This document shows, piece by piece, positions 46,149 to 63,709 of a stretch of DNA of 64,000 nt. The DNA lies in contig NZ_JAGOPN010000003.1 in assembly GCF_017991995.1 (NCBI RefSeq), positions 124,001 through 188,000 of the forward strand, written 5' to 3'. Numbering within the stretch: position 1 is the stretch's first letter; every line of letters starts with the position of its first letter. Source of the stretch: Pseudacidovorax sp. (GTDB taxonomy: Bacteria > Pseudomonadota > Gammaproteobacteria > Burkholderiales > Burkholderiaceae_C). The notes beneath the pieces were generated by a model. It did not search any database and had not been told where the DNA came from. It was given only the letters and a program-made list of their open reading frames with translations. Both the position numbers and the translations under genes were made by a program.

Positions 46149-47117
46149 ATGCCCACCCGACGTTCCTGGCTCGGCGCCGCGGGCGCTGTGGCAGCCCTGC
46201 TGGCGGCCGGCTGCGCGCCCGCGCCGATGCGCCTGGACGGCACCTTCCTGCAGCCCTGGCGCAGCCACGAGGCGCTGTCGCTCGAGGAGTGGCAGCGCCG
46301 CCTGCGCGTGACGCGCGAGCTGGGCTGCCGCGAGGTGGTGGTGCAGTGGATGGGCCTGTACGGCGGCGCCAACGACTGGATGCTGACGCCCGCGCTGCTG
46401 CAGATGCTGTTCGACGAGGCCGCGCGCCAGGGCATGGGCGTGCGCCTGGGTCTGCCCTACGACGAGCGCTGGTGGACCACGCTCGGTGCCAAGCAGCCCG
46501 AGGCGTTGCCGGCCTTCCTGGACCAGACGCGCGATCGCAGCCTGGCCGCCATGCGCAGCGAGCCCTGGCCGGCCCATGCCGCCTTCCGCGGCTGGTACCT
46601 GCCCTACGAGATCGACCAGTACAACTGGGCCACGCCCGAGCGCCGGCGCCTGCTCACCGCCTGGCTGCGCGAGCTGGCGGCCGAGCCCCTCAAGCGCAGC
46701 CAGCCGCGCCTGGCCGTCTCCACCTTCTACAGCCGCCTGCCCACGCCGGGCTCGCTGGATGGCCTGTGGGCCGAGATCCTCGACGCCGCGCCGCTGCGGC
46801 CCATGCTGCAGGATGGCGTGGGCGTCGCCGGCATGGGCAACTACGCGGGGCTGGAGCCGCTGCGCCGCCTGCTGCGCCAGCGCGGCGTCGCCTTCGACCT
46901 GATCGTGGAGTTGTTCGAGCAGTTGCCCAACCCGCCCGGCCAGCCCGACGGCTTCCGCGCCCGGGCGGCTACGCTGGAACGCGTGCGCGCCCAGCTGGAG
47001 GTGGCGCGCACCTACGGCGCCGAGCATGTGCTCGCCTTCGCCATCGACCCCTGGCTGCTCGGCGACACGCCCGAGGCCAAGAAGCTGCTGCGCGACTGGC
47101 GCGGCGGCGACGCCTGA
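46149..47117 (+). CDS. DUF4434-type lipoprotein, possible glycan-processing protein
   Basis: 322 residues. The N-terminus is a lipoprotein signal (RRSWLGAAGAVAALLAAGCAP, with Cys at the lipobox). The body starts LDGTFLQPWRSHEALSLEEWQRRLRV and looks like a glycosidase-type barrel: MGLYGGANDW, VRLGLPYDERWW and FRGWYLPYEIDQYNW carry acidic residues placed as in DUF4434 proteins. I recall E. coli YbcH, next to nfrA/nfrB, belonging here, which would tie it to the polysaccharide locus downstream, but this must be verified. It begins 12 bp after the lyase gene, so it is probably transcribed with the methylcitrate operon. Confidence 0.7.
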   Translation: MPTRRSWLGAAGAVAALLAAGCAPAPMRLDGTFLQPWRSHEALSLEEWQRRLRVTRELGCREVVVQWMGLYGGANDWMLTPALLQMLFDEAARQGMGVRLGLPYDERWWTTLGAKQPEALPAFLDQTRDRSLAAMRSEPWPAHAAFRGWYLPYEIDQYNWATPERRRLLTAWLRELAAEPLKRSQPRLAVSTFYSRLPTPGSLDGLWAEILDAAPLRPMLQDGVGVAGMGNYAGLEPLRRLLRQRGVAFDLIVELFEQLPNPPGQPDGFRARAATLERVRAQLEVARTYGAEHVLAFAIDPWLLGDTPEAKKLLRDWRGGDA

Positions 47118-47192
47118 AAAAAGCGTCCGCGCGTGGTCGATGTCACACCGGGCGCGCTCGCGTCAGGTGCTGGTCACGCCTGCTCCGCAAAG

Positions 47193-47238
47193 CTTGCGAA
47201 AAGTGAACATATACTAAAAATGTATCAACATTCGCAAG
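47193..47238. promoter_or_regulatory. Promoter and operator candidate of the ligase-carrier operon
   Basis: A perfect inverted repeat CTTGCGAA (47193-47200) and TTCGCAAG (47231-47238), separated by 30 bp, surrounds TATACT (47210-47215), a good -10. The AT-rich interior stands out from the surrounding GC-rich DNA. TTGCGAA also occurs in the prpC control region, so the ScfR-like regulator may act here. Confidence 0.55.
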
Positions 47239-47250
47239 TTGTGGACGGGC

Positions 47251-48423
47251 ATGAAGGCCGCTGAATCGTTGTCTGCAGCGGCCTCCGTGGAGGACGCCAC
47301 ATCCCGTGCGGCCGAGGTGGCCGCCGCCCATGCCGATGCCGTCGACCGCGAAGGCCGGCTGCCCACCGAGGTGCTCGACGCCCTCCGGGCGGAAGGGCTC
47401 ATGGGCCTGCTGGTGCCCGCCCGCCACGGCGGCCCCGGGCTGCCGCTGCGCACCGTGGTCAACGTCTGCCGGCGCCTGTCCGAGGCCTGCGCCTCGACCG
47501 GCCTGATCTACGCCATGCACCAGTCGCAGTCGGCCGTGGCCATCCAGCATGCGCAGAACAGCGACTGGCTGCAGGGCCTGCTGGCGCGCATGGCGTCCGG
47601 GCAGTTGCTGGTGGCCTCGGCCACCACCGAAGGCGCCACCGGCGGTGCCATCCGCTCCAGCGCCTGCTTCCTCGACCCGCAGACGGATGGCCGTCTGCAG
47701 CTGCGCAAGAACGGCGCCGTCATCTCCTATGCGCCTGCGGCCGACGTCTTCCTGGTCAGCGCCCGCCGCGCCGAGGATGCCGCGCCCACCGACCAGCGGT
47801 TGGTGGCCGTGCTGAAGGACCAGATCCAGCTGCACGCCCACGCGCCCTGGAACCCCATGGGCATGCGCGGTGCCCGCACCGACCGTTACGACCTGGTGGC
47901 CGACTGCGGGCCGGCGCAGGTCTATGCCGAGCCGTTCTCGGTGCACATGTCGCAGACCATGCTGCCCACCTCGCACCTGCTGCTGGGCGCCGTGTGGCTG
48001 GGCATCGCCGTGTCGGCGCTGGGCCGGGCGCGCGCCTTTCTGCGGCACCGCAACCGTGGCGGTGCGCCGCTCAATCCCATCGCCAACCTGCGGCTGGCCG
48101 AGGGCGAGACGCTGGTGCAGCAGTTCCGCGGCACGCTCGCCGCCTGCATGGCGCTCTACGAGGACGCCGACGGCCCGCAGACGGCCACCGAACGCATGGT
48201 CAGCTACAACGCGCTGAAGGTCGGCGCTTCGGAGCTGGTGGTGCGCGTCACCGACATCGCGCTGCGCATCTGCGGCATCCAGGGCTACATGGAGCCGGGC
48301 GAGTTCTACCTGAGCCGCCACATCCGCGATGCCCATGCCGCAGCCGTGATGGTCAACGACGACCGCATCCTCGGCAGCCTTTCCACCGTGGTGCTGGGCG
48401 TGCCGCTCAACCGCGACCTTTGA
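47251..48423 (+). CDS. Acyl-CoA-dehydrogenase-like flavoprotein, candidate acyl/aminoacyl-carrier dehydrogenase
   Basis: 390 residues of the acyl-CoA dehydrogenase fold: an N-terminal helical domain (LPTEVLDALRAEGLMGLLVPARHGGPGLPLRTVV), a middle domain with substrate-lid region LVASATTEGATGG and an FAD/beta region, then a C-terminal helical domain ending in RICGIQGYMEPGEFYLSRHIRDAHAAA. At the place where medium-chain dehydrogenases have the catalytic Glu (IYEGT), this protein has AAAVMVNDDR, so the base must come from elsewhere or be lost. The linked carrier and ligase suggest it oxidises a carrier-bound acyl group, as prolyl-carrier dehydrogenases do. The ATG at 47251 is preferred to a TTG at 47239. 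Confidence 0.82.
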   Translation: MKAAESLSAAASVEDATSRAAEVAAAHADAVDREGRLPTEVLDALRAEGLMGLLVPARHGGPGLPLRTVVNVCRRLSEACASTGLIYAMHQSQSAVAIQHAQNSDWLQGLLARMASGQLLVASATTEGATGGAIRSSACFLDPQTDGRLQLRKNGAVISYAPAADVFLVSARRAEDAAPTDQRLVAVLKDQIQLHAHAPWNPMGMRGARTDRYDLVADCGPAQVYAEPFSVHMSQTMLPTSHLLLGAVWLGIAVSALGRARAFLRHRNRGGAPLNPIANLRLAEGETLVQQFRGTLAACMALYEDADGPQTATERMVSYNALKVGASELVVRVTDIALRICGIQGYMEPGEFYLSRHIRDAHAAAVMVNDDRILGSLSTVVLGVPLNRDL

Positions 48424-48457
48424 ACATCGAGGCCCCGCGCCTCCGCCTTTTCCATCC

Positions 48458-48697
48458 ATGACCACGCCTGCCGAGATCGAACAACAACTCATCGCCCTGA
48501 TCCAGTCCGCCATCCTCAAGAAGGTGGACCCGGAGGTGCCCCTGCTCGAATCCGGCCTGCTCGATTCCGTGGCCGCCGTCGAGTTGATGCTGGCCATCGA
48601 GAGCCGCTTCGGCTGCACGGTGCCCATCACCGAGGCGCAGGAGCATCTTTACTCGGTGCGCACGCTGACCGACTTCGTGGTCGCCAACGCAGCCTGA
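48458..48697 (+). CDS. Acyl/peptidyl carrier protein (DltC-like)
   Basis: 79 residues. The phosphopantetheine attachment serine is S37 in LLESGLLDSVAAVELMLAIESRFG, the GLLDS form of DltC and NRPS-type carriers. The following PITEAQEHLYSVRTLTDFV fits helix III. It needs a phosphopantetheinyl transferase encoded elsewhere. Located between the dehydrogenase-like protein and the adenylating ligase, it is the likely shared carrier. Confidence 0.92.
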   Translation: MTTPAEIEQQLIALIQSAILKKVDPEVPLLESGLLDSVAAVELMLAIESRFGCTVPITEAQEHLYSVRTLTDFVVANAA

Positions 48698-48714
48698 GGC
48701 CTGCCCCGCCCGCC

Positions 48715-50154
48715 ATGCATTTCGACTACGACAGCGGCCGCTTCGTCCAGACCGAGTCCGGCGGTGAGCGGCCCGCCATCGTGGCCCGCGACCGCCACCT
48801 GGACTGGGCCCAACTGCAGCGCGAGGCCGAAGCCTGGTGCGACGAGGCCCGTCGCCTGGGCCTGGACGCGGACATGCCCATCGTCATCCGCGGCCACAAG
48901 GAAGCGGCCTTCATGGTGGCGCTGACGGGCGCGCTGATGCTGCGCGCGCCCTTCGTGCCGGTCGATGCCGTGTACCCGGCCGAGCGCCTGGCCAGCATCT
49001 GCCAGATCCTCGATGCCCATCTGCTCTACGACGCGGCCCAGGGCCGCTTCGAGGTGCTGCGCGACGGCGCCGGCACGCCGCTGGCCGAGAAGCAGCTCTG
49101 CTACGTGATGTTCACCTCGGGCACCACCGGCCAGCCCAAGGGCGTGCAGATCGGCCGCGAGAGCGTGCAGGGCCTGATCGACTGGATGCGTCTGGACTTC
49201 GGCCTCGGCGAGCGCCCGGTCTTCCTCGACCAGACGGTGTTCAGCTTCGATGTGTCGCTCTACGACGTGTTCGGCATGCTGGCGCTGGGCGGCACCATCC
49301 TTATGCTCGACCGGCAGGACGCCGCCTCGCCGCTGAAGGTGGCGGCATTGATGGCCGAGCATGGCGTGACGACCTGGGTGTCCACGCCGTCCTTCGCGCA
49401 GCAGCAGTTGGTCAACCCGGGCTTCACGCAGGCCGCGCTGCCGCAGTTGCGCGCCTTCGTCTTCTGCGGCGAGCCGCTGCCGGTGCCGCTGTGCCGGCAG
49501 CTGCGCAAACGCTTTCCCGATGTGCCGCTGCTCAACACCTATGGCCCCACCGAAGCCACGGTGGCGACCACGCTCCTGGTGGTGGAAGACGCCATGCTCG
49601 CCACCGACACGCCGCTGCCCATCGGCCGCGCCAAGCGCGACAGCGCCGTGTACTGCGACGAGGGCGAGCTGTGCATCGCCGGCCCGCATGTGATGCGCGG
49701 CTACCTCAACCGGCCCGACCTCAACGCCACGCGCATGTTCGTCCGCGACGGTCAGCGCGGCTTTCGCACAGGCGACCTCGGCACCGAGACCGAGGACGGC
49801 CTGCTCTTCTGCCATGGCCGCATCGACGACCAGATCAAGCTCAATGGCTACCGGCTGGAGCTGATGGAGGTGGACGCCGCCCTGGCCACGCTGCCGGGCA
49901 ACCGCGGCGCCTCGGCGGTGGCCCTGCGCCGGCCCAACGGCGCCGTGGCCCGGCTGGTGGCCTTCGTCGAGACCGGGAGCGACGACCCGGCGCTGCCGGC
50001 CGAGCTGGCCGACTGGAAGGCGCTGCTGGCCGCGCGCCTGCCGCACTACATGATCCCGTCGGAGCTGCTGCCCTGCGCGCAGTTGCCGGTCTCGGTCAAC
50101 TACAAGACCGACCGCGCCAGGCTGGCGCGGCTGTACGAGACGCTCAACGCTTGA
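48715..50154 (+). CDS. DltA-like amino-acid adenylation enzyme (carrier ligase)
   Basis: 479 residues, an ANL-family enzyme that activates a carboxylate as AMP ester and loads it on the carrier. Motifs are VMFTSGTTGQPKGV (about residue 131), VSTPSF, CGEPLP, NTYGPTEATVATT (about 274), the GDLG hinge region and the catalytic lysine in VNYKTDRAR. D179 in FSFDVSLYD is where amino-acid-specific enzymes bind the alpha-amino group. C251 in FVFCGEPLP corresponds to the cysteine I recall as favouring D-alanine in DltA. A D-Ala-like or other amino acid substrate is therefore more likely than a simple fatty acid. Its 3' end overlaps the convergent AlgF-like gene by 11 nt. Confidence 0.88.
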   Translation: MHFDYDSGRFVQTESGGERPAIVARDRHLDWAQLQREAEAWCDEARRLGLDADMPIVIRGHKEAAFMVALTGALMLRAPFVPVDAVYPAERLASICQILDAHLLYDAAQGRFEVLRDGAGTPLAEKQLCYVMFTSGTTGQPKGVQIGRESVQGLIDWMRLDFGLGERPVFLDQTVFSFDVSLYDVFGMLALGGTILMLDRQDAASPLKVAALMAEHGVTTWVSTPSFAQQQLVNPGFTQAALPQLRAFVFCGEPLPVPLCRQLRKRFPDVPLLNTYGPTEATVATTLLVVEDAMLATDTPLPIGRAKRDSAVYCDEGELCIAGPHVMRGYLNRPDLNATRMFVRDGQRGFRTGDLGTETEDGLLFCHGRIDDQIKLNGYRLELMEVDAALATLPGNRGASAVALRRPNGAVARLVAFVETGSDDPALPAELADWKALLAARLPHYMIPSELLPCAQLPVSVNYKTDRARLARLYETLNA

Positions 50155-50830
50155 AGGTGTCGGTGCGGGCCGGCTGCATCGTCAGCACCGGCTTGTCGGC
50201 CGTGCCGGTCATGAACAGGCTCAGATGGTCGCCGGCCTGCAGCGCGGGCAGGGCCTGCGCCGCGCTCGTGGCACCGCCGCAGGCCGCAGCCAGCTGGGCC
50301 TGCACCGGGTTCACCGAGCGTGCACCGGCCGCCATCGGCGCCACGTCGCGAACGACCGGCGTGCCGGCGGGTGCGATCTGCAACTGGGCCTTGGCACAGC
50401 CGGGCACCAGGTTGTAGAAGCGCAGCTCGGCCTTCAGCGCATCGGGCACGTCGCCCGTGTCGTCGATGGCGGTGAAGGCATAGGCGCTGCCCTCGCGCCG
50501 CAGCACCCAGGTGCCGAAGCGGTCGGGCTGCACCTCCAGCGTCGCGCTTTTCTTTCCCCCCACCTGAACGGCGAAGGGCCGGCCGCCGGCCACGATGGCA
50601 TAGCTGGTGGCGGGCGTCTGCGGCCCGATGCGCTGGGCCGGGCCGTCGGCCACTTGTACCAGCAGCGTCTCGGTCGTGGGGTTGACCACGCGCACGAAGG
50701 ACGAGCCGGCCGGTGGCCGCGCGGCATACAGCTGCGACAGGGCGCCGTCCTGGGCCTGGGCGGGCAGTGTCACGAAGGCGGAGACGGCGGGCAGCACCAG
50801 CGCGCGAAGGAGGAAGGCGAGAGGCTTCAT
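50144..50830 (-). CDS. AlgF-like periplasmic O-acylation protein
   Basis: 228 residues with a Sec signal (RALVLPAVSAFVTLPAQA). The mature protein begins QDGALSQLYAARPPAGSSFVRVVNP and has two beta-rich halves with KAELRFYNLVPGCAKAQLQI. This is the AlgF pattern, the periplasmic partner of alginate O-acetylation that passes acyl groups between AlgJ and AlgX. The start ATG overlaps the MBOAT stop (TGATG). Last gene of the minus-strand polysaccharide operon. Confidence 0.82.
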   Translation of the reverse strand: MKPLAFLLRALVLPAVSAFVTLPAQAQDGALSQLYAARPPAGSSFVRVVNPTTETLLVQVADGPAQRIGPQTPATSYAIVAGGRPFAVQVGGKKSATLEVQPDRFGTWVLRREGSAYAFTAIDDTGDVPDALKAELRFYNLVPGCAKAQLQIAPAGTPVVRDVAPMAAGARSVNPVQAQLAAACGGATSAAQALPALQAGDHLSLFMTGTADKPVLTMQPARTDTFKR

Positions 50831-52413
50831 CAGAATTGAAAGTAGAGGAACCGCGCTTCGCGATGCAGGTTCATGACGCTGACCAGCAGCAGGATCAGCA
50901 CCACGACCAGCCAGCCTGTGCTCGGCTGCCAGCGCAGCCACGTGGGCCGGCCTTCCTGCACGCGCCCCAGGGCAGGCGAGAAGCGGCCGAGGATCTGGTA
51001 GGCGTTCGGCGCGCCCCAGGCGATGGCCAGCAGCCCCACGATCAGCAGCGCCTGCATGTGGCGGCCGATCAGCGCCTGCCAGCCCGCCCAGCCCTGCGCC
51101 AGCAGGCCGGCCGTCTGCGCGCCGCCCAGCGACTCCACGCCGCGCAGCCCGGCCATGCCTTCGAGCAGTGCCAGGGCGCCCTGCACGTCATGGGCGCGGA
51201 AGAACACATGCGCCACCGTCACCGAGGCAAAGGTCAGGCCCACGCAGGCGATGAGCCACAGCCGCTTGCCGCGCGCACCCTGCGGCGCGATGCGTGGCGC
51301 CAGGCCGATGCGCCAGGCGTGGTTGAGGCACAGGTAGCTGCCATGCAGCAGCCCGTAGATGAAGAACTGCAGCCCTGCGCCATGCCACACGCCCGCCAGG
51401 CCCATGGTGTAGAGCGTGGGCCAGCCGATCATCAGCGCGAAGCCCAGCGGCGTGCGGCTGCCGGCGGCACCCACCGGCAGGCCGCGGCGGCTGCGCCAGC
51501 GCGACACCTTCATGGCCATCGGGTAGTAGAGGTAGGTGGTGAGGTAGCGCGTCAGCGTCATGTGCCAGCGCGCCCAGTAGTCGATGATGCTGGCCGCCTT
51601 GAAGGGCGAGTTGAAGTTCAGCGGAAAGCGCACGCCGAACATCTTGGCCAGGCCCAGCGCCATGTCCGAATAGCCCGAGAAGTCGAAGTACAGCTGCAGC
51701 GTGTAGGCCAGCGCGGCGCCCCAGGCGCCCCAGAACTGAGGGTCGCCCGGCGCCGCGAAGCCGGCGTCGGCATAGGGTGCGATGCTGTCGGCCAGCAGCA
51801 CCTTCTTGGCCAGCCCGATGACGAACAGCGTGCCGCCCACCGACAGGTTCTCGGCGCGGAAGCGGTAGGTCTCGGCCTGGTCGAACTGCGGCATCATTTC
51901 CTTGTGATGCAACACCGGCCCCGCGATCAGGTGCGGGAAGAAGGTGACGAACAGCGTGTGGTTGAGCAGGCTCGCCTTCTTCACCGCGCCGGCCTGGCAG
52001 TCCAGCAGGTAGCCGATCTGCGTGAAGGTGAAGAAGGAGATGCCCAGCGGCAGCAGGATGTCCTGCACCGGCCCCGCGCGCAGCCCCAGGTCGGCCAGCG
52101 CAGCCAGTAGCGTGGTGAAGTACTTGTAGTGGAACAGCAGCGCCAGGTTGCAGCCCACGCCCACCGCGGTGATCCACCACTGCCGGCGCTTGTCGGCAGC
52201 ACTGCCGATGATGAGCCGGCTGAACACATGGTTGACCAGGATCGAGCCGGCCAGCAGCGCGACGAAGCGCGGGTTCCACCAGCCGTAGAAGACGAAGGAG
52301 GTCAGGCACAGCCACAGCGCCGCCCAGCGCCGGCCGGCCGCGGCCAGGGCGTAGTAGCCACCCAGCGCCACTGGCAGGAAGAGGAACAGGAAGAGGTACG
52401 AGTTGAACAGCAT
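50830..52413 (-). CDS. MBOAT membrane O-acyltransferase (AlgI/DltB-like)
   Basis: 527 residues with about a dozen hydrophobic helices starting MLFNSYLFLFLFLPV. FYGWWNPRFVALL, LLPLGISFFTFTQIGYLLDC, FFPHLIAGPVLHHKEMMPQF, LQLYFDFSGYSDMALGLAKMFG and INDYW-type SIIDYWARWHMTLTRYL are typical of AlgI. The catalytic histidine is in MGLAGVWHGAGLQFFIYG. MBOAT proteins move acyl groups from a cytoplasmic donor across the inner membrane. The donor may be acetyl-CoA, as in alginate, or a carrier thioester, as for DltB. The ligase/carrier pair converging on this operon favours the second. Confidence 0.93.
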   Translation of the reverse strand: MLFNSYLFLFLFLPVALGGYYALAAAGRRWAALWLCLTSFVFYGWWNPRFVALLAGSILVNHVFSRLIIGSAADKRRQWWITAVGVGCNLALLFHYKYFTTLLAALADLGLRAGPVQDILLPLGISFFTFTQIGYLLDCQAGAVKKASLLNHTLFVTFFPHLIAGPVLHHKEMMPQFDQAETYRFRAENLSVGGTLFVIGLAKKVLLADSIAPYADAGFAAPGDPQFWGAWGAALAYTLQLYFDFSGYSDMALGLAKMFGVRFPLNFNSPFKAASIIDYWARWHMTLTRYLTTYLYYPMAMKVSRWRSRRGLPVGAAGSRTPLGFALMIGWPTLYTMGLAGVWHGAGLQFFIYGLLHGSYLCLNHAWRIGLAPRIAPQGARGKRLWLIACVGLTFASVTVAHVFFRAHDVQGALALLEGMAGLRGVESLGGAQTAGLLAQGWAGWQALIGRHMQALLIVGLLAIAWGAPNAYQILGRFSPALGRVQEGRPTWLRWQPSTGWLVVVLILLLVSVMNLHREARFLYFQF

Positions 52414-52418
52414 GCGCG

Positions 52419-53525
52419 TCAGGGCAGGGCGGCGGCGGCACGCGCCTCGTCGGCGCTCAGGGGCAGCGAGAGCGAGAGCTCGGAGAAGGTCCACACCACG
52501 AGCTTGAGGCTGGCGGGCCAACGGTCCTGCTGGGCCAGGGCGGCCAGCATGGCGCCGGAGAAGTAGCCGCCGTCGTGGCTGATGGTCCAGACCTCGCGTC
52601 CGAGCTGGCGGCCCAGGCGGCCGGGGAATTCGCTGCGAAGGCCGTTGGAGTCGCCCACCAGCAGCACCTCGGCCGACGGTCCCGCATCCAGCAGACCGCC
52701 AGTGGCCACGGGCACGATGCGCTCGGGCGTGAATTGCTCCAGCGTCGGGCGCCAACCTTCGGGCATTCGATCCAGGCCGGCCAGCACGATCAGGTCGCCC
52801 ATGCGCGGCTCGGGCGCTGCGCCGCGCTGCTCGTCGAAGCGCTGGCTGCCCGGGCCGCCGAGCATCGGCAAGGCGGCGCGGGCGATGGCGTCGGCCGCCG
52901 CCTCGGCGCCCGCCGGGGCCATGTGCACGTCGGTGCGGTAGTAGGCCTGGGGCAGGGCCGCCAGCGCAGGGCGCAGGTCCACCTGCGTCACGCCGGCCTC
53001 GGCCAGGCGCTGCTGCCAGTCGTCCAGCCGGGCCTGCATGACGGTCGACACCGGCAGGCCGCACAGGTGCGCGGCCTCGATGCGCGACTTGTCCGGCACC
53101 GTGGCCACCACCAGTTGCACGCCGCGCGCGCGCAGCACCTGCGCCCAGTGCCGCATCAGGGCCAGGCGGCGCGCATAGGCCGCGGCCGCGACGGCCTCGC
53201 CGGCCGGTGGCCGCAGCCCGTCGCGGTAGAAGAGCCAGCCCGGGCAGCCCGGGGCCACCTGCGGACCCAGGTCGCCCAGCAGGCGCCAGCGCAGGCCGGC
53301 ACCCCAGCGCGTCCAGTCGGACTGGCCGGGCAAGGCGCCCAGCGTGCGGTTCATGGCGGCCTCGGCGCCGGTCTGCTGCCAGGCGGTGCGATCCGTCGTT
53401 CCCAGCCGCCACGCGCCCCAGGCGAGGCCGGCGACCAGCAGCAGGCCGATGACGATGGCGAAGGGGACGTGCCGGCGGTCGGGGGGGGCGGAGGCGGAGG
53501 GCGGGGGCGCCGGCGGTGCGGCCAT
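52419..53525 (-). CDS. AlgX/AlgJ-like SGNH acyltransferase, membrane anchored
   Basis: 368 residues. A Pro-rich N-terminus is followed by one membrane helix (PFAIVIGLLLVAGLAWGAW). The catalytic domain has the DxH motif at D199/H201 (AYYRTDVHMAPAG) and the nucleophile S293 in VLLVGDSNGLRSEF, the arrangement that gives AlgX and AlgJ an Asp-His-Ser triad. It should act on the periplasmic side, receiving acyl groups from the MBOAT. It ends 5 bp before the MBOAT start. Confidence 0.85.
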   Translation of the reverse strand: MAAPPAPPPSASAPPDRRHVPFAIVIGLLLVAGLAWGAWRLGTTDRTAWQQTGAEAAMNRTLGALPGQSDWTRWGAGLRWRLLGDLGPQVAPGCPGWLFYRDGLRPPAGEAVAAAAYARRLALMRHWAQVLRARGVQLVVATVPDKSRIEAAHLCGLPVSTVMQARLDDWQQRLAEAGVTQVDLRPALAALPQAYYRTDVHMAPAGAEAAADAIARAALPMLGGPGSQRFDEQRGAAPEPRMGDLIVLAGLDRMPEGWRPTLEQFTPERIVPVATGGLLDAGPSAEVLLVGDSNGLRSEFPGRLGRQLGREVWTISHDGGYFSGAMLAALAQQDRWPASLKLVVWTFSELSLSLPLSADEARAAAALP

Positions 53526-53527
53526 GC

Positions 53528-54517
53528 TCACGCGAGCGCGGCCTGGATGCGGCGCTGCCACTCCTCGGCCGACACCACCGACGCGCTGTCCCACAGCCCG
53601 CGCGCGTCCGGTCCCAGGTGGAAGTTGGGCTCGAACAGCTGCCACACCAGCGCCTGCGGCTTCTGCTGGCGGAAGGCATTCGATTCCACGTACTCGAGCA
53701 GCACCCGCCAGAAGCCCACGTCGCCCGGCTTCCAGTTGACCGACACCGGCCGGTCCAGCACGTTCGACAGCTTCTGCGGAAAGCCGAAGTAGGGCTGCAC
53801 CATGCTGTTGCCGGTGACGTGCACCGGCGAGGGCGCGTCGGCCAGCAGGCTTTCTCCGTCGCCGGCGCGGCGCACCGAGTAGATCTCGCGGCCCACGGCG
53901 CGGCGCTGCTCGGGCGACAGGAAGCGGTCCGCCAGATCGCCGTAGCGGCGCTCGTTGATCAGCGGCCCCAGCGCCATGCCGGTGCCGGGCTGGCCGGCCA
54001 GGTTGGGCACCTTCTGGCGGATCAGGTCGGCCGTGGCCTGGGCCGTGGCGTCGGCCGCGGGCTGCGCCCAATGCTGGTCGGTGCGGTAGTAGACCGCCTG
54101 GCCGGCGGCCTTGAGGGCCATCAGCAGCTTGTCGTCGTCGAAGGTGGCCACGCCCGCCGTCTGCAGGCGCGAGAGGATGCCGGCGTAGCGCTGGCGCATC
54201 TCGGGCGACATGGGCTTGTCCGCGGGCAGCTTCTCCTCGTAGATGCGCATCTTGTCGGGCAGCACCGGCACCACCAGGGCCACGCCCTTGGCCGCCAGCA
54301 ACTGGCTCACCTGCACCACGCGCGCCACGGTGGCGTCGATGCCCTTCCAGTCGGGCGTGGTCAGGCTGTCCCAGGCCGCGAAGATGTAGTTGTCCTGGCC
54401 CACGAAGGCCAGGTTGTCGGCGGGCTGGGCCCGTGCCAGGCCGGCCAGGGCCAGGCCCATGGGCAGGCCCAGCAGGTGGCGGCGTCGCAGGCCGCTGGCG
54501 GTGCGGTCGTCGGTCAT
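53528..54517 (-). CDS. Second AlgX/AlgJ-like SGNH protein, exported
   Basis: 329 residues with a twin-arginine-like or Sec signal (GLRRRHLLGLPMGLALAGLARAQ). D147/H149 in YYRTDQHWAQPA form the DxH motif. The serine motif is VTGNSMVQ (S238) where relatives have GDS or GTS. It probably pairs with the membrane-anchored copy as AlgJ does with AlgX: one relays and the other acylates the polymer. Only 2 bp separate it from the next gene. Confidence 0.83.
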   Translation of the reverse strand: MTDDRTASGLRRRHLLGLPMGLALAGLARAQPADNLAFVGQDNYIFAAWDSLTTPDWKGIDATVARVVQVSQLLAAKGVALVVPVLPDKMRIYEEKLPADKPMSPEMRQRYAGILSRLQTAGVATFDDDKLLMALKAAGQAVYYRTDQHWAQPAADATAQATADLIRQKVPNLAGQPGTGMALGPLINERRYGDLADRFLSPEQRRAVGREIYSVRRAGDGESLLADAPSPVHVTGNSMVQPYFGFPQKLSNVLDRPVSVNWKPGDVGFWRVLLEYVESNAFRQQKPQALVWQLFEPNFHLGPDARGLWDSASVVSAEEWQRRIQAALA

Positions 54518-54578
54518 GGATGCAAACCCCTCGTCGTGTCGTCTCGGTGCGCGCGGTTGGGCCGCGCGTCGGCAGGAA

Positions 54579-57500: not shown

Positions 57501-57782
57501 CATGGCCAGGCTGTCGCCCGACAGGCGCCGGCGCCAGCCGGGCAGTTCGGCCATCTGCAGGGCGTCCTGCGGTGTCTCGGGCACGGGCGTGGGCGCCGGC
57601 TGTCCGCCGGCCGTGGCCGTCTCGGGCAGCGCCAAACGGTAGGCGACACGCAGCTGGACGCCGGTGTCCTGCCCGGCGGGTGCCTCGGCGGCGAGGGGCG
57701 CGACCGAGGCCAGGGCCGGCATCACCGGCCAGGCCGCGGCCAGGGCCATCGCCAGCGTGGCTTTGCGGTGCAGCGGTTTCAT
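54579..57782 (-). CDS. nfrA: NfrA-like TPR and outer-membrane polysaccharide secretin
   Basis: 1067 residues, close to E. coli NfrA (about 990). A signal peptide ends near PALAS. Residues 75-200 are Pro/Ala/Arg-rich and probably disordered. Then come multiple TPR-like helical repeats (YRAYNQGRYALALERADAAL, YTLYNDGKYAEAAKLAEQAV, AYAALNKGRNREALAEARDAV), with a C-terminal beta-rich barrel from about 790 ending in the aromatic GLFMTLSYSY. NfrA is the phage N4 outer-membrane receptor and the exporter of the N4 glycan. It overlaps the glycosyltransferase gene by 4 nt. Confidence 0.85.
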   Translation of the reverse strand: MKPLHRKATLAMALAAAWPVMPALASVAPLAAEAPAGQDTGVQLRVAYRLALPETATAGGQPAPTPVPETPQDALQMAELPGWRRRLSGDSLAMVRMARIEPRGLPSSADADPLMQIGGAPPPAPPQGPFPPGGPDVVLGAGARRLPTIPTRLDLAQLQESPSPDAPAQFVRPGERRAAPAARAPGPRAGRASRGGNRLRGTAWRLAAQGYRAYNQGRYALALERADAALKLRPDVPRLQLLRVYTLQKLGRLDEAERSAAQAIAQGHGSPELQAALVNLRPAPAGTGAAPTTEAYRRGFPIATEAYTLYNDGKYAEAAKLAEQAVRIDPSQGPWTLLWLNALENQQRYDDVVQYGNVAMALGAPNKDAIMARMRLARQQIANLHAQAAYAALNKGRNREALAEARDAVRIAPDVASHRMLLIGVLQAMRDDAAAEKAATEALSADDENTGVQLLRAYLRQSLGETAAAQQDIDEVLALDWITDDQRRNARLIGADLALAADQPDRAKALLAPLPADDAQAQARLKRASRFAGWGTDADNSLETHAPLQLCRDTPYGTVCELAPWDDPGTDSPASRAYAAYGRQEYPKAIALARRAVAEQPDSEANQNLLTTTLASGNAQEQQEAMDRLNTALAAKPTDAGLLRQRAYLYGARKQYDLSLQDFVAARSTGEAPETNVLDEAYATAAVGNRPAAAAMLRQAIDDADAGKLTLDRQQRFDTRSAVANFSREWGVNASVGYRGARSPSNALAGQPISVPGNSTFSTVEAYWRPPEFLNSSNRTFEVYGRLSNTLHSGNTVTGAQVVDNPCGGTTTVSQGTFNSASGWPSTTGAIGARFTPDAGTNLTFGIERQFLLGTATRSGAINAGPASVRCALNSQAATIDYQGGKASGGWQAYMLYGFYEGTALRLDKPSWYTMEGYVQAGYTLLDHGVDYTERDASGNTLATGNGRLRRGQGFAAGEVRVGRSFLTSYSDRLVVFPHVTLAADWYSTQARVSGVPLAGASSFALAGNGSSWSAGAGIGVNLRYWLNEDRYNAQRSHADLSLQYRARLGGDADRAKGLFMTLSYSY

Positions 57783-59476
57783 GCGGGAGCCTGTTGTTGG
57801 GTGTGGGTTTCGAGGCCGACGAACTGCGAGTCGTTCTCCTGGAAGGCGATGGCCTCGTCGAGGGTGGCGTCGTCCAGCCAGCCGTTGTCCACCAGGATGG
57901 CGCCCAGCGGCCGGCGCGACTGCGCCTGCTGGCGCAGCGCGGCCTCCAGGTGCTCGGGGTCGATGGCCCGCCATGACAGCAGCAGCTCGCCCAGGCGCTG
58001 GCGCGTCTGCACCAGGTGGTCGTCGGAGGGGAAGTCGTGCATGGTCTTGTCCCACACCAGCCGCGTGCCGAAGAGCTTGTGCGACAGGAACAGGCGCCAG
58101 GCCCGGGCCGCGGCGGCGGCATTGATGAAGTTGCCCACCACCATTCGCGGCACCGACAGCAGGCCGTGCTCCCAGCCGTACATGCGGGTCACGAACCAGG
58201 CGCGCTGCAGCACGCGCCAGACCAGCAGCACGCCGTTGATGGCCATCACCGTCACCACCCAGCTGCCCGGATGCAGCAGCGGCGGGTAGTGCACGGTGAA
58301 CCAGCCGAACTGGTAGGCCAGGAAGAACAGCATGAAGTTCAGCACCAGCAGGTAGCCCAGCATGGCGACGAAGGAGGTCACCAGGCCCTTGCGGTCACGG
58401 TAGAGCAGGTACTTGGCCGCGAGCGAGCCGCGCCAGCCCACCTGCTCCCAGCCCTGGAAGCCGATGCCCAGCGTCCAGCGGGCCTTCTGCCGGTAGGCGG
58501 TGCGGAAGGTGTCGGGGAAGAACTCCCGCACGCCCAGCGGCATGCGCAGGGCATGCACCTTCTCGCGCCCCAGGCCGAACCACGAGCTGCGCCGCGTCAC
58601 GTAGTCCACCTCGAAGCGGCCGAAGATCTGCTTCATGCCGAGCTGGCCCAGGCGGTTGCCGATGTCGTAGTCCTCGGTCAGGCTGTCCACGTTGAAGGGC
58701 TGGTTCTGCGTGGCCTCGGCCAGGGTGTGCAGGGCGCGCAGCGAGAAGCAGGTGCCCACGCCGGCCGACGGCACGGTGCCCGCCAGGCTCTCGCGCACCA
58801 CCAGGTCCTTGCTGTGCCATTCGGCGAACTCGTCCATGTAGGTGCCGGCCACCAGTTCGAACCAGTGGCGCTCCAGCGAGGTCACCGGCAGCTGGATGAA
58901 GTCCATCCGCGGCAGCAGGTAGTTGTAGTACTTGAGCTCCAGCGGGTGGAGCACGTCCTCGCTGTCGTGCAGCACCACGCCCGCGAAGCGCTGGCCGGTG
59001 GACTTCTCGTACTTGAACACGGCCTGCACGACCCAGTTGAGGCAGTCGGCCTTGCAGGTGGGGCCGTCGTGCGGCACCTCCACGCGCACCAGGTGGCGGT
59101 AGCGCCGGCGCATGCGCTCCACCTCCTCGATGGTGCGCGCGTCGTTGCGGTAGGTGCCCACGAAGATCGCGTAGTCGCGGTACTCCAGCGTGGAGACCAT
59201 GTTGGCCAGCATGGGCGCGATCACGTCGTACTCGTGCCACGCCGGGATCATGATGGCCATGGGCTGCTCTGCGCGTTCGCGCAGCTGCGCCACCGACAGC
59301 GGCGCATAGCGCCGCCGCACGGTGAGCGCGCGCCAGGCCTCGCGCACCCAGTACCAGAGGTCGATGAACAGGTCGTCCAGCCCCGAGATCAGCACCAGCA
59401 CCGCCACGGTCGCCGTCAGCACCTCCAGCAGGTGGTAGTAGTCGGCCGCCAGGTACGGCCAGTAGAGCGAGTCCAT
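57779..59476 (-). CDS. nfrB: NfrB-like processive glycosyltransferase with C-terminal MshEN domain
   Basis: 565 residues. Two N-terminal helices (MDSLYWPYLA through LVLISGLDDLFIDLWYWV) lead into a GT2 domain with LHDSEDV (170-174), SLTEDYDIG (TED 267-269) and RQKARWTLG (QxxRW 330-334), the processive synthase signature. Further helices follow. The C-terminal region, from about 490, has RLGELLLSWRAIDPEHLEAALRQQ-type and PLGAILVDNGWLDDATLDEA repeats, the two halves of one MshEN domain, a c-di-GMP receptor module. E. coli NfrB has a longer tail with more repeats. The start at 59476 matches E. coli NfrB; an upstream ATG at 59536 is possible. Confidence 0.9.
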   Translation of the reverse strand: MDSLYWPYLAADYYHLLEVLTATVAVLVLISGLDDLFIDLWYWVREAWRALTVRRRYAPLSVAQLRERAEQPMAIMIPAWHEYDVIAPMLANMVSTLEYRDYAIFVGTYRNDARTIEEVERMRRRYRHLVRVEVPHDGPTCKADCLNWVVQAVFKYEKSTGQRFAGVVLHDSEDVLHPLELKYYNYLLPRMDFIQLPVTSLERHWFELVAGTYMDEFAEWHSKDLVVRESLAGTVPSAGVGTCFSLRALHTLAEATQNQPFNVDSLTEDYDIGNRLGQLGMKQIFGRFEVDYVTRRSSWFGLGREKVHALRMPLGVREFFPDTFRTAYRQKARWTLGIGFQGWEQVGWRGSLAAKYLLYRDRKGLVTSFVAMLGYLLVLNFMLFFLAYQFGWFTVHYPPLLHPGSWVVTVMAINGVLLVWRVLQRAWFVTRMYGWEHGLLSVPRMVVGNFINAAAAARAWRLFLSHKLFGTRLVWDKTMHDFPSDDHLVQTRQRLGELLLSWRAIDPEHLEAALRQQAQSRRPLGAILVDNGWLDDATLDEAIAFQENDSQFVGLETHTQQQAPA

Positions 59477-59625
59477 GCGGGAAAAGAGCCTCAGCGCCGC
59501 ATGCCGGCCGATGGCGGCGCCATCCTCTGCCGGCATCGGCAGGACCGGGCACTTGCGCGAAACAAGAGGCCGCGGAGCAGGCCACGCGCGTGCACCCGCG
59601 GAACTGGCTTTGCCAGGCCGCCGGG

Positions 59626-59673
59626 TGCGCCCCCTTCAGGGGGGGGGCGTAGCGCGCAGCGCGCAGCCTGGGG
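59626..59673. repeat. GC hairpin repeat between bcsB-like and nfrB
   Basis: GCGCCCCCTTC followed by a run of nine G and GCGTAGCGCGCAGCGCGCAGCC, then TGGGGG. This resembles a short intergenic palindromic repeat I associate with Comamonadaceae genomes. It lies right after the BcsB-like stop and breaks an otherwise overlapping operon. A hairpin there may stabilise or attenuate the transcript. The rest of the 138-bp gap shows no gene. Confidence 0.45.
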
Positions 59674-59674
59674 G

Positions 59675-61870
59675 TCACTTGTTCCGGTCATGGCGACGCT
59701 TCAGGCGATGGGCGATCACGAAGAGCAGCAGCAGTGCCAGCAGCGCGAAGGCGATCACCGGCACGCCCCACGACAGGTGGCGGCGCCATTCGGCCAGGAA
59801 GCCGGAGCCTTCGGGCGCGGCGTCGCTGTTGGCCGCGGCGCTGCCATCGGACCAGGCCACCGGGCCTTCATCGCCCAGCACGGCCAGGTCGCCACGGTTG
59901 AGCACGAAGGGCTTGCCCAGCGCCGGCTGCGTGCCCAGCACCTGGTAGACGAGGCCGTACTGGCCGTGGCTGCTGGCCACCTCGATGGCGCTGGCCTGGG
60001 CCAGCCCACCGACGTCCAGCCAGGGCGACTGCTTGCCGTTGATGCGCAGGTGGCCGTCCTTGACGGACACGCGGGCGTTGGCACCGTCGACCGGCACCTG
60101 CAGCGCCAGGAAGGGGCGGGCGGGGCTGAAGGCACCCTGGCCCTGCACCACCAGCTCGGCCCGCACGGGGCTCACGCCCGATGCGGCGGCGATGCGCACC
60201 AGTCGCGGCAGCGTGGCGATGGCGTCGGCCAGGTAAGACTCGGGCACGGCCACCTGCGGGTGGTAGGCCATCAGCGGCAGCAGGCCGACGAAGGTGCCGT
60301 CGGGCGCGGCGTCGCCCGTGCGCAGGGCGGTGGTGCGCAGCACCTGCACGGGGTAGGCCTGGGGCGCCTCGTTGCAGCCGTCGTAGTAGGGCTGGCGCTG
60401 GATGGCCACGCGCAGCACGTTGTTCAGGCCCAGCACGTAGCTGGGCACGCGGGCGTCGATGCGCTCGGGATGGCCGTCGGCGTTGAGCTGGCGGGCGCCG
60501 AGGAGGGTGTCGTTCCAGTACACCGTGGCCACCGGGCGCGAGCGGCCCGCGCTGGGCGAGACGGCCAGGTCGACGCCGATGTCGGTGGGCAGGCGGCCGT
60601 CGGCCGACAGCGCGGCCAGCGGCATGGTGACTGTCCAGTCGCCCTTGGCGAGCACGTCGAAGTTGGGGTTGGTGCCGCCCCATTGCGTCGGATGGATGAC
60701 CGTGCGGCTGCCGGCCTCGGCCTGGTCGGCCTTGTCGATCACGGCATTGCGGCCGATGAGCACGTTGCGCCAGGCGTCGGCGAAGGCACCGGCGGCCTGC
60801 GCGCCGGCATCTTCGGCCAGCACGATCACGGGCCGCGCACCCAGCGTGGCCAGGCGCACCATGTGCGAGGGCATGCCGTCGGCGGCCAGGGCGGTCTGCC
60901 GGCCGCGCCAGTCCGACAGCGCGCGGGCGGCGTCGGCATCGGCATTGAGTTGCGTGGCCAGCGCGTCGAGCGCGGCATTCATCTGCTGGCGCAGGGTGGC
61001 GTCCATGACGAGCAGGTCGCCCGTGGCGGCACCGGAGCCCAGCACCATCAGCGCGCCCACCTCGGCGGCATCGCGGATCTGGTGGCGGGCGTCGCCGGCG
61101 GCCAGGCCCGAGAAGGCGGGCAGGCCGGCCAGCGCGGGCGGGATCTGCCAGCCCTGGGTGTCGACGCTGTCGCCCACCGCGGGGAAGCTGCGCACGTTGA
61201 TCTGGCGGCCGGCCTGTTCCATGGCCAGGCCGATGCGCCAGGCGCTGTCGTAGGCGCCCTTGGACAGGCGCTTGCCGGCCACGATCATCGTCGGCCTGGC
61301 GGGCAGCGCCACCCAGGCGTCGGCCAGGTTGGTCAGGGCGCCGCTGGTGAAGCGGTAGGTGAAGCGGGTGTCGGGCTCGACGGCCAGCACGTTGCCCGAG
61401 GGACGCTCATAGGCGCAGATGCGCTCGGGCGAGTTGTTGATCCAGCTGACGCCCAGGCGCAGGAAGCCGTCGACGATGGTGCGGGTGTCCACCTTCAGCA
61501 CCTGGCTGGCGTCGCCCTCGGCCGTGTCCACCCGGGTGGCATAGCTGGGCCGGCCGTTGACGGCCAGCGTCATCGAGGTGCGGGCCTCCTCGGGCTTGTA
61601 GTAGCGGCCGCGGAAGTCGATGCCCGCATCGGCAATGGCCACGTTGCGCGGCACCGGCAGGTAGAACTCCTGCTTGGCGTCGAAGCCGGTGAGCAGCACG
61701 GTGCGGGTGATCCCCAGGTCGGCCAGCGTGAAGCTGCGCGTGACCCAGGTCTCGCCCTGCAGTCGCTGCAGGGCGTCGCCCGCAGGACTGGCCAGGGCGG
61801 CGACGGGGGCCAGCAGGCCGATCCCGAGGACCAGTGGAAGAGGATGAAGCAGGCGGTGGGGCAGTCTCAT
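59675..61870 (-). CDS. BcsB-like periplasmic polysaccharide synthase subunit
   Basis: 731 residues. A signal peptide (PLPLVLGIGLLAPVAALAS) is followed by repeated carbohydrate-binding-like and flavodoxin-like domains and a C-terminal membrane helix (LSWGVPVIAFALLALLLLFVIAH) with a basic tail. FTLADLGITRTVLLTGFDAKQEFYLPVPRNV and SVSWINNSPERICAYERPSG-type segments match the cellulose synthase regulatory subunit family. No BcsA or other bcs genes accompany it, so it likely escorts the NfrB product instead. The start overlaps the wecB stop by 4 nt. Confidence 0.85.
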   Translation of the reverse strand: MRLPHRLLHPLPLVLGIGLLAPVAALASPAGDALQRLQGETWVTRSFTLADLGITRTVLLTGFDAKQEFYLPVPRNVAIADAGIDFRGRYYKPEEARTSMTLAVNGRPSYATRVDTAEGDASQVLKVDTRTIVDGFLRLGVSWINNSPERICAYERPSGNVLAVEPDTRFTYRFTSGALTNLADAWVALPARPTMIVAGKRLSKGAYDSAWRIGLAMEQAGRQINVRSFPAVGDSVDTQGWQIPPALAGLPAFSGLAAGDARHQIRDAAEVGALMVLGSGAATGDLLVMDATLRQQMNAALDALATQLNADADAARALSDWRGRQTALAADGMPSHMVRLATLGARPVIVLAEDAGAQAAGAFADAWRNVLIGRNAVIDKADQAEAGSRTVIHPTQWGGTNPNFDVLAKGDWTVTMPLAALSADGRLPTDIGVDLAVSPSAGRSRPVATVYWNDTLLGARQLNADGHPERIDARVPSYVLGLNNVLRVAIQRQPYYDGCNEAPQAYPVQVLRTTALRTGDAAPDGTFVGLLPLMAYHPQVAVPESYLADAIATLPRLVRIAAASGVSPVRAELVVQGQGAFSPARPFLALQVPVDGANARVSVKDGHLRINGKQSPWLDVGGLAQASAIEVASSHGQYGLVYQVLGTQPALGKPFVLNRGDLAVLGDEGPVAWSDGSAAANSDAAPEGSGFLAEWRRHLSWGVPVIAFALLALLLLFVIAHRLKRRHDRNK

Positions 61871-63042
61871 GCGAAGTCCAGGCTCGGAACGGAAGCGGGT
61901 TGGAGGGGCGGGGGCGCGAACTCGGCCACGGGGCGGCCGCACAGCGCATCGACGATGCGGCGGCAGGCATGGCCGTCGCCGTAGGGGTTGCCGCGGCGGG
62001 CGATCTCGGCATGGGCGTGCGGGTCGTCCAGCAGGCGCCGGGCGGCGCGCAGGATGCGCTCGGGCGCCGTGCCCACCAGGTGGGCGGTGCCGGCGGCCAC
62101 GGCCTCGGGGCGTTCGGTCACGTCGCGCATCACCAGCACGGGTTTGCCGAGGTGGGGCGCCTCTTCCTGCACGCCGCCGGAGTCGGTCAGGATCAGGTGG
62201 GCGCGGCGCATCAGCCAGATGAAGTCCAGGTAGCCCACCGGCTCGATCAGGTGGACATTGGGCAGGCCGTGCAGCAGCTGCATCACGACGCCGCGCACGT
62301 TGGGATTCATGTGCACCGGATAGACCACCTCGACGTCGTCGCGCAGGGCCAGCTCGCGCAGGGCGGCGCAGATCTGCCGGAAGCCGTCGCCGAAGTTCTC
62401 GCGCCGGTGGCCGGTGACCAGCACCAGCCGGCGGCCGGGCGCGAGCCAGCCGTAGCGGCCGGAGACGGTGGCCGACAGCGCGGGATCGGCGTCCAGCCGG
62501 GCCAGCGCGGCGGCCAGCGCGTCGATGACGGTGTTGCCCGTCACCCAGGCGCGGCCGCCCAGGTTCTCGCGTCGCAGCGCATCGCGCGCGGCGGGCGTGG
62601 GGGCGAACATCCACTCGCTCATCACATCGACGACGCGGCGGTTCATCTCCTCGGGGAAGGGCGCCTTCATGTCGCCGCTGCGCAGGCCTGCCTCCACATG
62701 GCCCACCGGGATGCGCAGGTGGAAGGCGGCCAGGGCGCAGGCGGCGGCGGTGGTGGTGTCGCCATGCACCAGCACGCAGTCGGGGCGCAGTTCGCGCAGC
62801 ACCTCGTCCATGCGCGTCGTGAGGCGGGCGCTGAGTTGGTTGAGCGTCTGGTCCGGCTGCATCACGTCCAGGTCGTGATCGGCCTTCAGGCCGAACAGCC
62901 CCATGGCCTGCGCCAGCATCTCGCGGTGCTGGCCGGTGATGCACAGGGTGCTGCGCAGCTGGGGCTCCGCGGCCAGCGCGGACACCAGGGGCGCCATCTT
63001 GATGGCTTCGGGGCGGGTTCCAAAAATCGAGAGGACGTGCAT
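61867..63042 (-). CDS. wecB: UDP-N-acetylglucosamine 2-epimerase, non-hydrolysing
   Basis: 391 residues, GT-B fold. It converts UDP-GlcNAc to UDP-ManNAc. MHVLSIFGTRPEAIKMAPLV, VLVHGDTTTAAACALAAFH, PVGHVEAGLRSGDM, FPEEMNRR, VTGHRRENFG, DSGGVQEEAPHLGKPVLVMRDVTERPE and the catalytic region are all conserved. As the first gene of the operon, it fixes UDP-ManNAc as the probable precursor for the adjacent glycosyltransferase. No wecC-like dehydrogenase is present, so the sugar probably stays as ManNAc. Confidence 0.96.
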   Translation of the reverse strand: MHVLSIFGTRPEAIKMAPLVSALAAEPQLRSTLCITGQHREMLAQAMGLFGLKADHDLDVMQPDQTLNQLSARLTTRMDEVLRELRPDCVLVHGDTTTAAACALAAFHLRIPVGHVEAGLRSGDMKAPFPEEMNRRVVDVMSEWMFAPTPAARDALRRENLGGRAWVTGNTVIDALAAALARLDADPALSATVSGRYGWLAPGRRLVLVTGHRRENFGDGFRQICAALRELALRDDVEVVYPVHMNPNVRGVVMQLLHGLPNVHLIEPVGYLDFIWLMRRAHLILTDSGGVQEEAPHLGKPVLVMRDVTERPEAVAAGTAHLVGTAPERILRAARRLLDDPHAHAEIARRGNPYGDGHACRRIVDALCGRPVAEFAPPPLQPASVPSLDFA

Positions 63043-63645: not shown

Positions 63646-63687
63646 GAATACCTCCTGGTCGAAGCGCCTGCGGCGGGATTGCCCCAG

Positions 63688-63709
63688 GCATTCGCGATGC
63701 GGCGAATGC
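63688..63709. repeat. Inverted repeat upstream of csbD
   Basis: GCATTCGC and GCGAATGC form a perfect 8-bp arm pair around a 6-nt loop, 43 bp before the CsbD start codon. It could be an operator or a 5'-UTR hairpin. Confidence 0.5.

Follow-up and report, generated by a model that had tools for sequence, protein, structure and literature searches.

The closest described relative of the locus reported here is the NfrBA-YbcH system of Escherichia coli K-12, which is responsible for the N4 glycan receptor (NGR), a polymer of N-acetylmannosamine (ManNAc) under cyclic di-GMP (c-di-GMP) control (PMC8669469 and PMC8669472, in excerpt). Excerpts of the same two papers describe an nfr cluster with alginate-acetyltransferase-like genes and BcsB in Achromobacter xylosoxidans (PMC8669472; mBio, 2021) and one with acetyltransferase-like genes in Simplicispira suum (PMC8669469; mBio, 2021). 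Two acylation systems are also similar in part: Dlt (DltABCD of Gram-positive bacteria, with dlt-like forms in Gram-negative bacteria) and alginate O-acetylation (AlgI, AlgJ, AlgX, and AlgF). We analyzed a 64,000-nucleotide stretch of DNA from Pseudacidovorax sp. (contig NZ_JAGOPN010000003.1; the window), in which 12 genes at 46149-63042 are arranged as two convergent groups. The best classification for them is an Nfr pathway whose donor branch is Dlt-like, and they probably encode Nfr-type synthesis of an exopolysaccharide that is O-aminoacylated through a branch fed by a carrier protein. The pairing of Nfr with acetyltransferase-like genes was known already. The part for which we found no precedent in print is an adenylating ligase and a carrier protein beside a membrane-bound O-acyltransferase (MBOAT).

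The locus is like E. coli NGR in having an NfrB with a c-di-GMP motif, an NfrA exporter, a YbcH-like DUF4434 protein, and WecB. However, it adds BcsB and an acylation module and has wecB in the cluster, NfrB is shorter, and NfrA is 23% identical (over 448 amino acids [aa]; E value, 1e-6). It shares Nfr plus alginate-type acylation genes with the A. xylosoxidans and S. suum clusters and BcsB with the former, as excerpted. The adenylating ligase, small carrier, and DltB-type MBOAT are Dlt-like, but unlike Dlt the window has AlgJ-like enzymes and AlgF, an exopolysaccharide synthase and exporter, and the flavoenzyme ACAD1. No DltD was found among the 12 cluster proteins with Pfam or among 10 of them with NCBIfam (BcsB and WecB were covered by Pfam only), and therefore we did not file the locus as a Dlt system. 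The MBOAT, the pair of AlgX/AlgJ-type SGNH proteins, and AlgF make the alginate O-acetylation set complete. However, the two AlgX-domain proteins, of 368 and 329 aa, are smaller than the AlgX chains in the PDB (456 and 487 aa). The locus was not filed as alginate acetylation because its synthase is NfrB rather than an alginate (mannuronate) synthase and because it has its own carrier donor.

The original prediction for this DNA was of a combination without known precedent. This has to be narrowed, because the Nfr and alginate-type pairing had already been noted in the excerpts of PMC8669472 and PMC8669469, but the donor module was not found in print. Among the papers listed in a literature search and judged by title and abstract start, none seemed to describe a carrier-protein donor for the Nfr polymer, and the main texts of the two papers contain no "carrier protein," "AMP-binding," "acyl-CoA," or adenylation term. 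The genes are as follows.

61867..63042, minus strand: WecB, UDP-GlcNAc 2-epimerase (UDP-ManNAc supply); PF02350, 395 bits
59675..61870, minus strand: BcsB-like periplasmic subunit; PF03170, 29.5 bits (cutoff, 21)
57779..59476, minus strand: NfrB-type processive glycosyltransferase with a C-terminal MshE-related c-di-GMP motif; NF012033, 942 bits (cutoff, 537); NF053729, 56.5 bits
54579..57782, minus strand: NfrA-type tetratricopeptide repeat (TPR) and outer membrane exporter; PF13283 NfrA_C, 80 bits (cutoff, 25); TPR
53528..54517, minus strand: AlgX2, AlgJ-like SGNH acyltransferase with ALGX domain; PF16822, 200 bits
52419..53525, minus strand: AlgX1, second AlgJ-like SGNH acyltransferase with ALGX domain; PF16822, 220 bits
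50830..52413, minus strand: MBOAT acyl exporter/transferase of DltB/AlgI type; PF03062; DltB equivalog model, 164 bits (cutoff, 375)
50144..50830, minus strand: AlgF-like periplasmic protein; PF11182, 67 bits
48715..50154, plus strand: DltA-like amino acid adenylating ligase, pocket DVYSVCTVAK; DltA equivalog models, 353 bits (cutoffs, 476 and 560)
48458..48697, plus strand: DltC-like carrier protein; PF00550; DltC model, 41 bits (cutoff, 52)
47239..48423, plus strand: ACAD1, acyl-CoA-dehydrogenase-fold flavoenzyme; PF02771/PF00441
46149..47117, plus strand: YbcH-like DUF4434 protein with a lipoprotein-like N terminus (LLAAGC); PF14488, 177 bits

Transcription of the minus-strand genes runs wecB, bcsB-like, nfrB, nfrA, algX2, algX1, MBOAT, algF. 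The plus-strand group consists of the DUF4434 lipoprotein-like gene, ACAD1, the DltC-like carrier, and the DltA-like ligase, which is convergent with algF and overlaps it by 11 bases. Pfam and NCBIfam profiles bore out every gene that the original prediction had named, with its strand and the convergence. ACAD1 and the DUF4434/YbcH-like gene, which it had left unnamed, lie in the same interval.

The synthase, NfrB, shares 45% identity with its E. coli counterpart over 539 aa and carries the D, TED, and QxxRW motifs and the c-di-GMP motif of NfrB-type glycosyltransferases. Its score is above the NF012033 cutoff and below that of the E. coli NfrB equivalog, NF008411 (590 bits; cutoff, 1170). An MshEN domain had been predicted on this protein. 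Pfam MshEN, which lies at 542-628 in E. coli NfrB, had no match in window NfrB, and that C-terminal part is missing (565 versus 745 aa). However, the NCBIfam MshE-related motif (NF053729) is present at 494-546 (cutoff, 38 bits) and at the corresponding place in E. coli NfrB, 489-540. E. coli YbcH, encoded by the third gene of the nfrBA-ybcH operon, and the window DUF4434 protein both match PF14488 and are 27% identical over 205 aa; the window protein is below the NF007404 equivalog cutoff. With the NfrB and NfrA homologues, this shared match gives all three E. coli Nfr genes counterparts here. Glu154 and Glu254 of the DUF4434/YbcH-like protein are invariant in 14 aligned rows and could be a glycoside hydrolase pair. 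The NfrB residues that we checked were D169, D267, W330, L490, G491, G519, and L537, which were mutated in E. coli according to the excerpts of PMC8669469 and PMC8669472; all are kept except L537, which is Ile543 in the window. wecB is a single-copy gene, the sole WecB match in the 6.24-Mb host genome. Its product has the GTRPEAIK motif, with Lys15, and the excerpt of PMC8669472 describes E. coli WecB K15A as catalytically inactive. The NfrB profile, the NCBIfam motif, and the single-copy wecB support the prediction of an Nfr-type pathway that carries a c-di-GMP motif and has a WecB of its own.

The acyl-transfer genes resemble those of both alginate acetylation and Dlt. A profile search of structures with the MBOAT found DltB at approximately 1e-27, its nearest solved relative, and the WHG His was conserved in 36/36 rows. 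AlgX1 and AlgX2 both have AlgJ (4o8v) as their best solved relative. The DxH and Ser motifs are present in 35/35 AlgX2 rows and in 35/36 AlgX1 rows, the remaining row being a truncated sequence. The carrier has a DS phosphopantetheine-site motif in all 32 rows. For the ligase, the best single-domain structure match was DltA (289 bits), versus 169 bits for both linear gramicidin synthase and the best prolyl ligase; linear gramicidin synthase A tops the structure table only by summing two domains (125 + 169 bits). Together, these identifications support the O-acylation module and carrier-protein donor of the original prediction.

The ligase pocket was read at positions that we take to be those of the PheA numbering. 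Three classes emerged among related loci (L numbers), namely class I (the window and 6 loci; DVYS(V/L)CTVAK), class II (23 loci; DFFS(V/L/M)GSCSK, with the fragment L047 lacking the last residue), and class III (L067 and L069; DLYSLCTVAK). The pocket of DltA (3fcc/3dhv) is DLM-S-LC-TVA in the printed alignment. The window pocket differs from it at three positions but keeps the Cys, which in DltA controls the choice of D-alanine. Classes I and III thus have what appears to be a D-alanine-type pocket, Cys included, and class II presumably activates something else. Each pocket class formed one clade in ligase trees, one of which used 18/31 ligases and had long-branch outgroup rows. An acylated product had been predicted; a carrier donor is present, and it is better taken as an aminoacyl donor than as a general acyl one. 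In our best reading, an Nfr-type ManNAc polymer is not acetylated but aminoacylated in a Dlt-like manner, perhaps with D-alanine.

We searched for relatives by scanning with an MBOAT alignment and kept the best 80 of at least 551 loci, to which the locus counts refer. NfrB is present at 34 of these, all of which have the same gene set, arranged in a few ways, and absent from 46; the 34 come from Burkholderiales, Pseudomonas, and Stenotrophomonas. At MBOAT identities of at least 56%, 34/36 loci hold NfrB, the exceptions being L047 (a 3.3-kb contig) and L082 (7.6 kb). Below 56%, NfrB was found at none of the 44 loci. For donor comparisons we used a 35-locus group (the 34 NfrB loci plus L047), drawn after NfrB was seen. 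Trees omit seven of the 35 as near-duplicates or a fragment (L046, L047, L050, L054, L059, L061, and L062). The other 45 loci were counted as lacking NfrB, only 28 of which are longer than 20 kb, and where NfrA and DUF4434 were missed at distant loci, the limits of tblastn may be the reason. The layout wecB-bcsB-nfrB-nfrA-algX2-algX1-MBOAT-carrier-ligase-algF-dehydrogenase occurs at loci of Achromobacter, Delftia, Pandoraea, Bordetella, Cupriavidus, Pseudomonas, and Stenotrophomonas.

Within the 35, a carrier-type donor is present wherever it could be assessed: ligase plus carrier in 31 and FkbH plus carrier in 3, with L040 ending too early for assessment. All three FkbH loci match TIGR01686 (305-311 bits; cutoff, 147) and have a DSL-motif carrier. 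FkbH proteins make glyceryl-carrier, and this form probably supplies a glyceryl group. The donor module comes in four exchangeable forms: a DltA-like pocket with ACAD1, the other pocket usually with a canonical dehydrogenase (ACAD2), a DltA-like pocket alone, and FkbH with carrier. Among the 45 loci outside Nfr, an FkbH match was found at 21 and a similar carrier at 22. The acyl group that DltB uses is delivered by a carrier protein. The carrier and FkbH neighbors of the MBOAT family, together with DltB as its nearest solved relative, argue by analogy that this family has a carrier-protein acyl donor as well. FkbH and carrier beside a related MBOAT were also seen at non-Nfr loci of Stutzerimonas, Ensifer, Rhizorhapis, and Paraburkholderia (L078, L084, L088, L090, L111, L113, and others). 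Gellan carries glyceryl, and these sets are candidates for the enzymes that attach glyceryl esters to exopolysaccharides.

Alternatively, the MBOAT and AlgJ-like proteins might do no more than O-acetylate the Nfr polymer with acetyl groups drawn from the cytoplasm, as happens with alginate and as was proposed in the two 2021 papers; the ligase, carrier, and ACAD1 would then be an unrelated neighbor pathway. The AlgJ matches of AlgX1 and AlgX2, the presence of AlgF, the class I donor genes on the other strand, and the term acetyltransferase-like in the excerpts of PMC8669469 and PMC8669472 would fit this. However, 23/23 class II and 2/2 class III loci have the carrier and ligase genes after the MBOAT gene and in its orientation, and some carrier donor, FkbH form included, is kept at every assessable locus. 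The profile match of the MBOAT to DltB, a carrier-dependent enzyme, also speaks against it. We consider simple acetylation unlikely.

A slightly less likely alternative is that the donor module serves to make an independent small molecule or to modify a different part of the envelope, as Gram-negative dlt operons may do, and shares only its location with the MBOAT branch. Gram-negative dlt-like operons with related ligases do exist away from Nfr (L126, L127, and L128), and in the order sample those of L127 and L128 have the pocket DLY-S-LC-TVA. However, genome G161 has both such an operon (L127) and an Nfr-linked set (L022), the L127 MBOAT is nearer to a Klebsiella DltB-like query than to the window MBOAT, and at Nfr loci the NfrA exporter changes along with the acylation genes (see below). 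The stand-alone operons contain DltD-like, MBOAT, ligase, and carrier genes (L127:8736-13108, L128:9427-13526, and L126:5537-9589), and one lies on a Klebsiella electrica plasmid.

We also looked at distribution from the NfrB side. In a genus sample, 6/15 genomes have NfrB, and the same 6 have ACAD1. The whole gene set is present in four of the five NfrB-positive congeners other than the window genome, at 87 to 100% identity. In the fifth (L020), the contig ends inside nfrB and no DUF4434 match lies beside ACAD1. This patchiness might suggest a cluster that is cryptic or nonfunctional in the host strain. However, all 12 reading frames are open, the motifs that were checked are intact, and full sets are conserved in four congeners, which makes a dead cluster very improbable. 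In the order sample, 16/399 genomes have NfrB, including the window genome. The acyl module is present in 3 of the 15 other neighborhoods (L021, L022, and L023). BcsB without it is present in three (L024-L026), eight have NfrB, WecB, and DUF4434 matches only (L028-L035; L035 is also short), and L027 is cut by a contig end. In the class sample, NfrB was found in 7/369 genomes, including the window genome, and the acyl module in 0/3 of the neighborhoods examined among the other six. The acyl module thus occurs in a minority of NfrB neighborhoods, as an addition to certain Nfr loci. The predicted co-occurrence of the two halves therefore holds as seen from the MBOAT but not as seen from NfrB.

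In the carrier-fed aminoacylation pathway that we favor, WecB would make UDP-ManNAc. c-di-GMP would activate NfrB, which with BcsB would polymerize ManNAc across the inner membrane, and NfrA would export the chain; the c-di-GMP control and the ManNAc product are carried over from E. coli (PMC8669469 and PMC8669472, in excerpt). In the cytoplasm, the ligase would activate an amino acid and load it onto the carrier; D-alanine or some other small amino acid is the probable substrate. ACAD1 would probably then oxidize the carrier-bound aminoacyl group. By analogy with DltB, the MBOAT would accept the carrier-bound acyl group and pass it through the membrane. The two AlgJ-like enzymes and AlgF would place it on the polymer in the periplasm, as in alginate acetylation.

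Several observations weigh against this pathway. The donor genes of the window are on the strand opposite the acyltransferase operon. The ligase, carrier, and MBOAT all score below the DltA, DltC, and DltB equivalog cutoffs. Small amino acids besides D-alanine, such as glycine, would remain candidates for the ligase. FkbH had no match at 24/45 related non-Nfr MBOAT loci, some of them on short contigs. Furthermore, class III loci lack ACAD1 despite their DltA-like pocket, and three class II loci lack ACAD2, suggesting that oxidation is dispensable somewhere.

The dehydrogenases follow the pocket classes. ACAD1 is present in 6/6 class I loci. ACAD2, which belongs to another subfamily, is present at 19/23 class II loci (none is in the stretch at L049, L050, or L063, and L047 is cut off), and neither is at the class III loci L067 and L069. 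ACAD1 lacks Glu at both of the usual catalytic positions (YEGT and helix G; alignment judged by eye). It has Ser-His and MVNDDRI motifs in their places in 7/7 rows, as positioned by eye on printed alignments. ACAD2 keeps the LCAD-type catalytic Glu in 20/20 rows (19 loci plus the L022 reference). A joint ACAD1/ACAD2 alignment misplaced ACAD2, and the Glu positions rest on printed pair alignments. Because the catalytic glutamate is absent, ACAD1 may not carry out ordinary desaturation and may instead N-oxidize its substrate or form an imine; of all the steps in our reading, this one is the weakest.

ACAD1-like genes (E value of 1e-35 or better) are present in 11/399 order genomes, including the window genome and G194, which has the Nfr locus L021. 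Eight of the remaining nine neighborhoods were examined. The eight relatives share [SA]H and NDRI-type replacement motifs. In 8/8, an amino acid-[acyl-carrier-protein] ligase homologue adjoins the ACAD1 relative (that of L147 and seven others 40 to 72% identical to it); the two homologues that were scored against NCBIfam reached 498 and 445 bits (cutoff, 357). A same-strand carrier precedes in 7/8; at L146, the sole match spans 41 residues and lies on the opposite strand. These clusters are like the window in having an ACAD1-type flavoenzyme next to a carrier. However, they are of the Bll0957 type, with a tRNA-synthetase-like ligase and DUF1839 and not the DltA-like ligase, MBOAT, and Nfr genes of the window. 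Bll0957 reportedly prefers glycine. Two unlike routes of amino acid loading are each paired with an ACAD1-type flavoenzyme, which suggests that ACAD1 probably acts on aminoacyl-carrier protein. To our knowledge, no oxidation of carrier-bound amino acids of this kind has been described. As a recurrent Burkholderiales cluster (L144-L151; approximately 9-15 kb in L144), these loci contain the carrier, the ACAD1-like gene, the ligase (8/8), DUF1839 (7/8), and a GH2-like protein, and exopolysaccharide sugar transferase homologues are present in 4/8.

Two other roles for the dehydrogenases were considered. ACAD1 could be a nitrososynthase acting on a sugar nucleotide; 3mxl is among its structure matches and also lacks Glu at the aligned helix G place. 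The carrier-protein neighbors disfavor this, and we retain it only as a possibility. A pyrrole-2-carboxylate donor (prolyl ligase, carrier, and prolyl-carrier dehydrogenase) was rejected for the window, where the ligase is much closer to DltA than to prolyl ligases and where ACAD1 lacks the catalytic base and reaches just 50 bits against RedW (cutoff, 650). Such a donor is still conceivable for class II loci. ACAD2 of L022, where the ligase pocket is DFFSVGSCSK, scores 207 bits against RedW and higher against acryloyl-CoA reductase and long-chain dehydrogenase structures.

Close relatives can differ in their donor. Pandoraea horticolens (L044) has a class II ligase and P. communis (L066) has FkbH. 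Their NfrB proteins are 93% identical and their BcsB proteins 94% identical (over a 264-residue piece), but identity is 30% for NfrA, 44% for AlgX2, 52% for AlgX1, 58% for MBOAT, 42% for AlgF, and 56% for DUF4434. L044 and L066 are sisters in the NfrB tree (98/90), on which the FkbH state requires three changes. In Stenotrophomonas daejeonensis and a congener (L063 and L064), NfrB is 83% and MBOAT 80% identical, versus 30% for NfrA, 48% for AlgX2, and 47% for AlgF. In both pairs, change affects the exporter and part or all of the decoration set and leaves the synthase constant. Therefore, related bacteria appear to swap the decoration step like a cassette. The excerpt of PMC8669472 proposes that NfrA might be the terminal receptor of N4 in E. 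coli, and the abstract of PMC5862860 names lipopolysaccharide (LPS) as the receptor of Achromobacter phage phiAxp-3. NfrA changes together with the acyl block, but because the phiAxp-3 receptor is LPS, we propose phage-driven swapping only as a hypothesis.

A fuller scenario is possible, although we hold it only tentatively. The polymer would bear an ester of an oxidized small amino acid, with ACAD1 making D-alanyl- or glycyl-carrier imino, N-oxygenated, or dehydro before transfer. Exporter, acylation, and donor blocks (aminoacyl I, II, or III or glyceryl) would be exchanged on a constant NfrB, a serotype-like switch of surfaces met by N4-type phages.

If carrier-fed aminoacylation is correct, the Nfr-linked "acetyltransferase" genes of 2021 attach carrier-delivered amino acid or glyceryl groups instead, and a Gram-negative exopolysaccharide is charged or tailored much like teichoic acids. 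Block exchange would offer a testable explanation of why an exopolysaccharide serving as a phage receptor in E. coli varies. ACAD1 would indicate that carrier-bound amino acids are oxidized, and that this happens again in a second type of gene cluster.

Three minor observations concern BcsB and the flanks. At L131 (2723-4757), BcsB matches in two overlapping pieces, perhaps because of a frameshift or assembly error. A CsbD-family stress protein gene (63454-63870) lies beside wecB, with matches of 70 to 81% identity in 3/5 congener stretches. Directly upstream of the DUF4434 gene are prpF, prpB, and an aconitase-like gene (assigned by eye) of the 2-methylcitrate pathway (44018-46136 and 41366-44014), and prpB adjoins the cluster in 4/5 congener stretches fetched.

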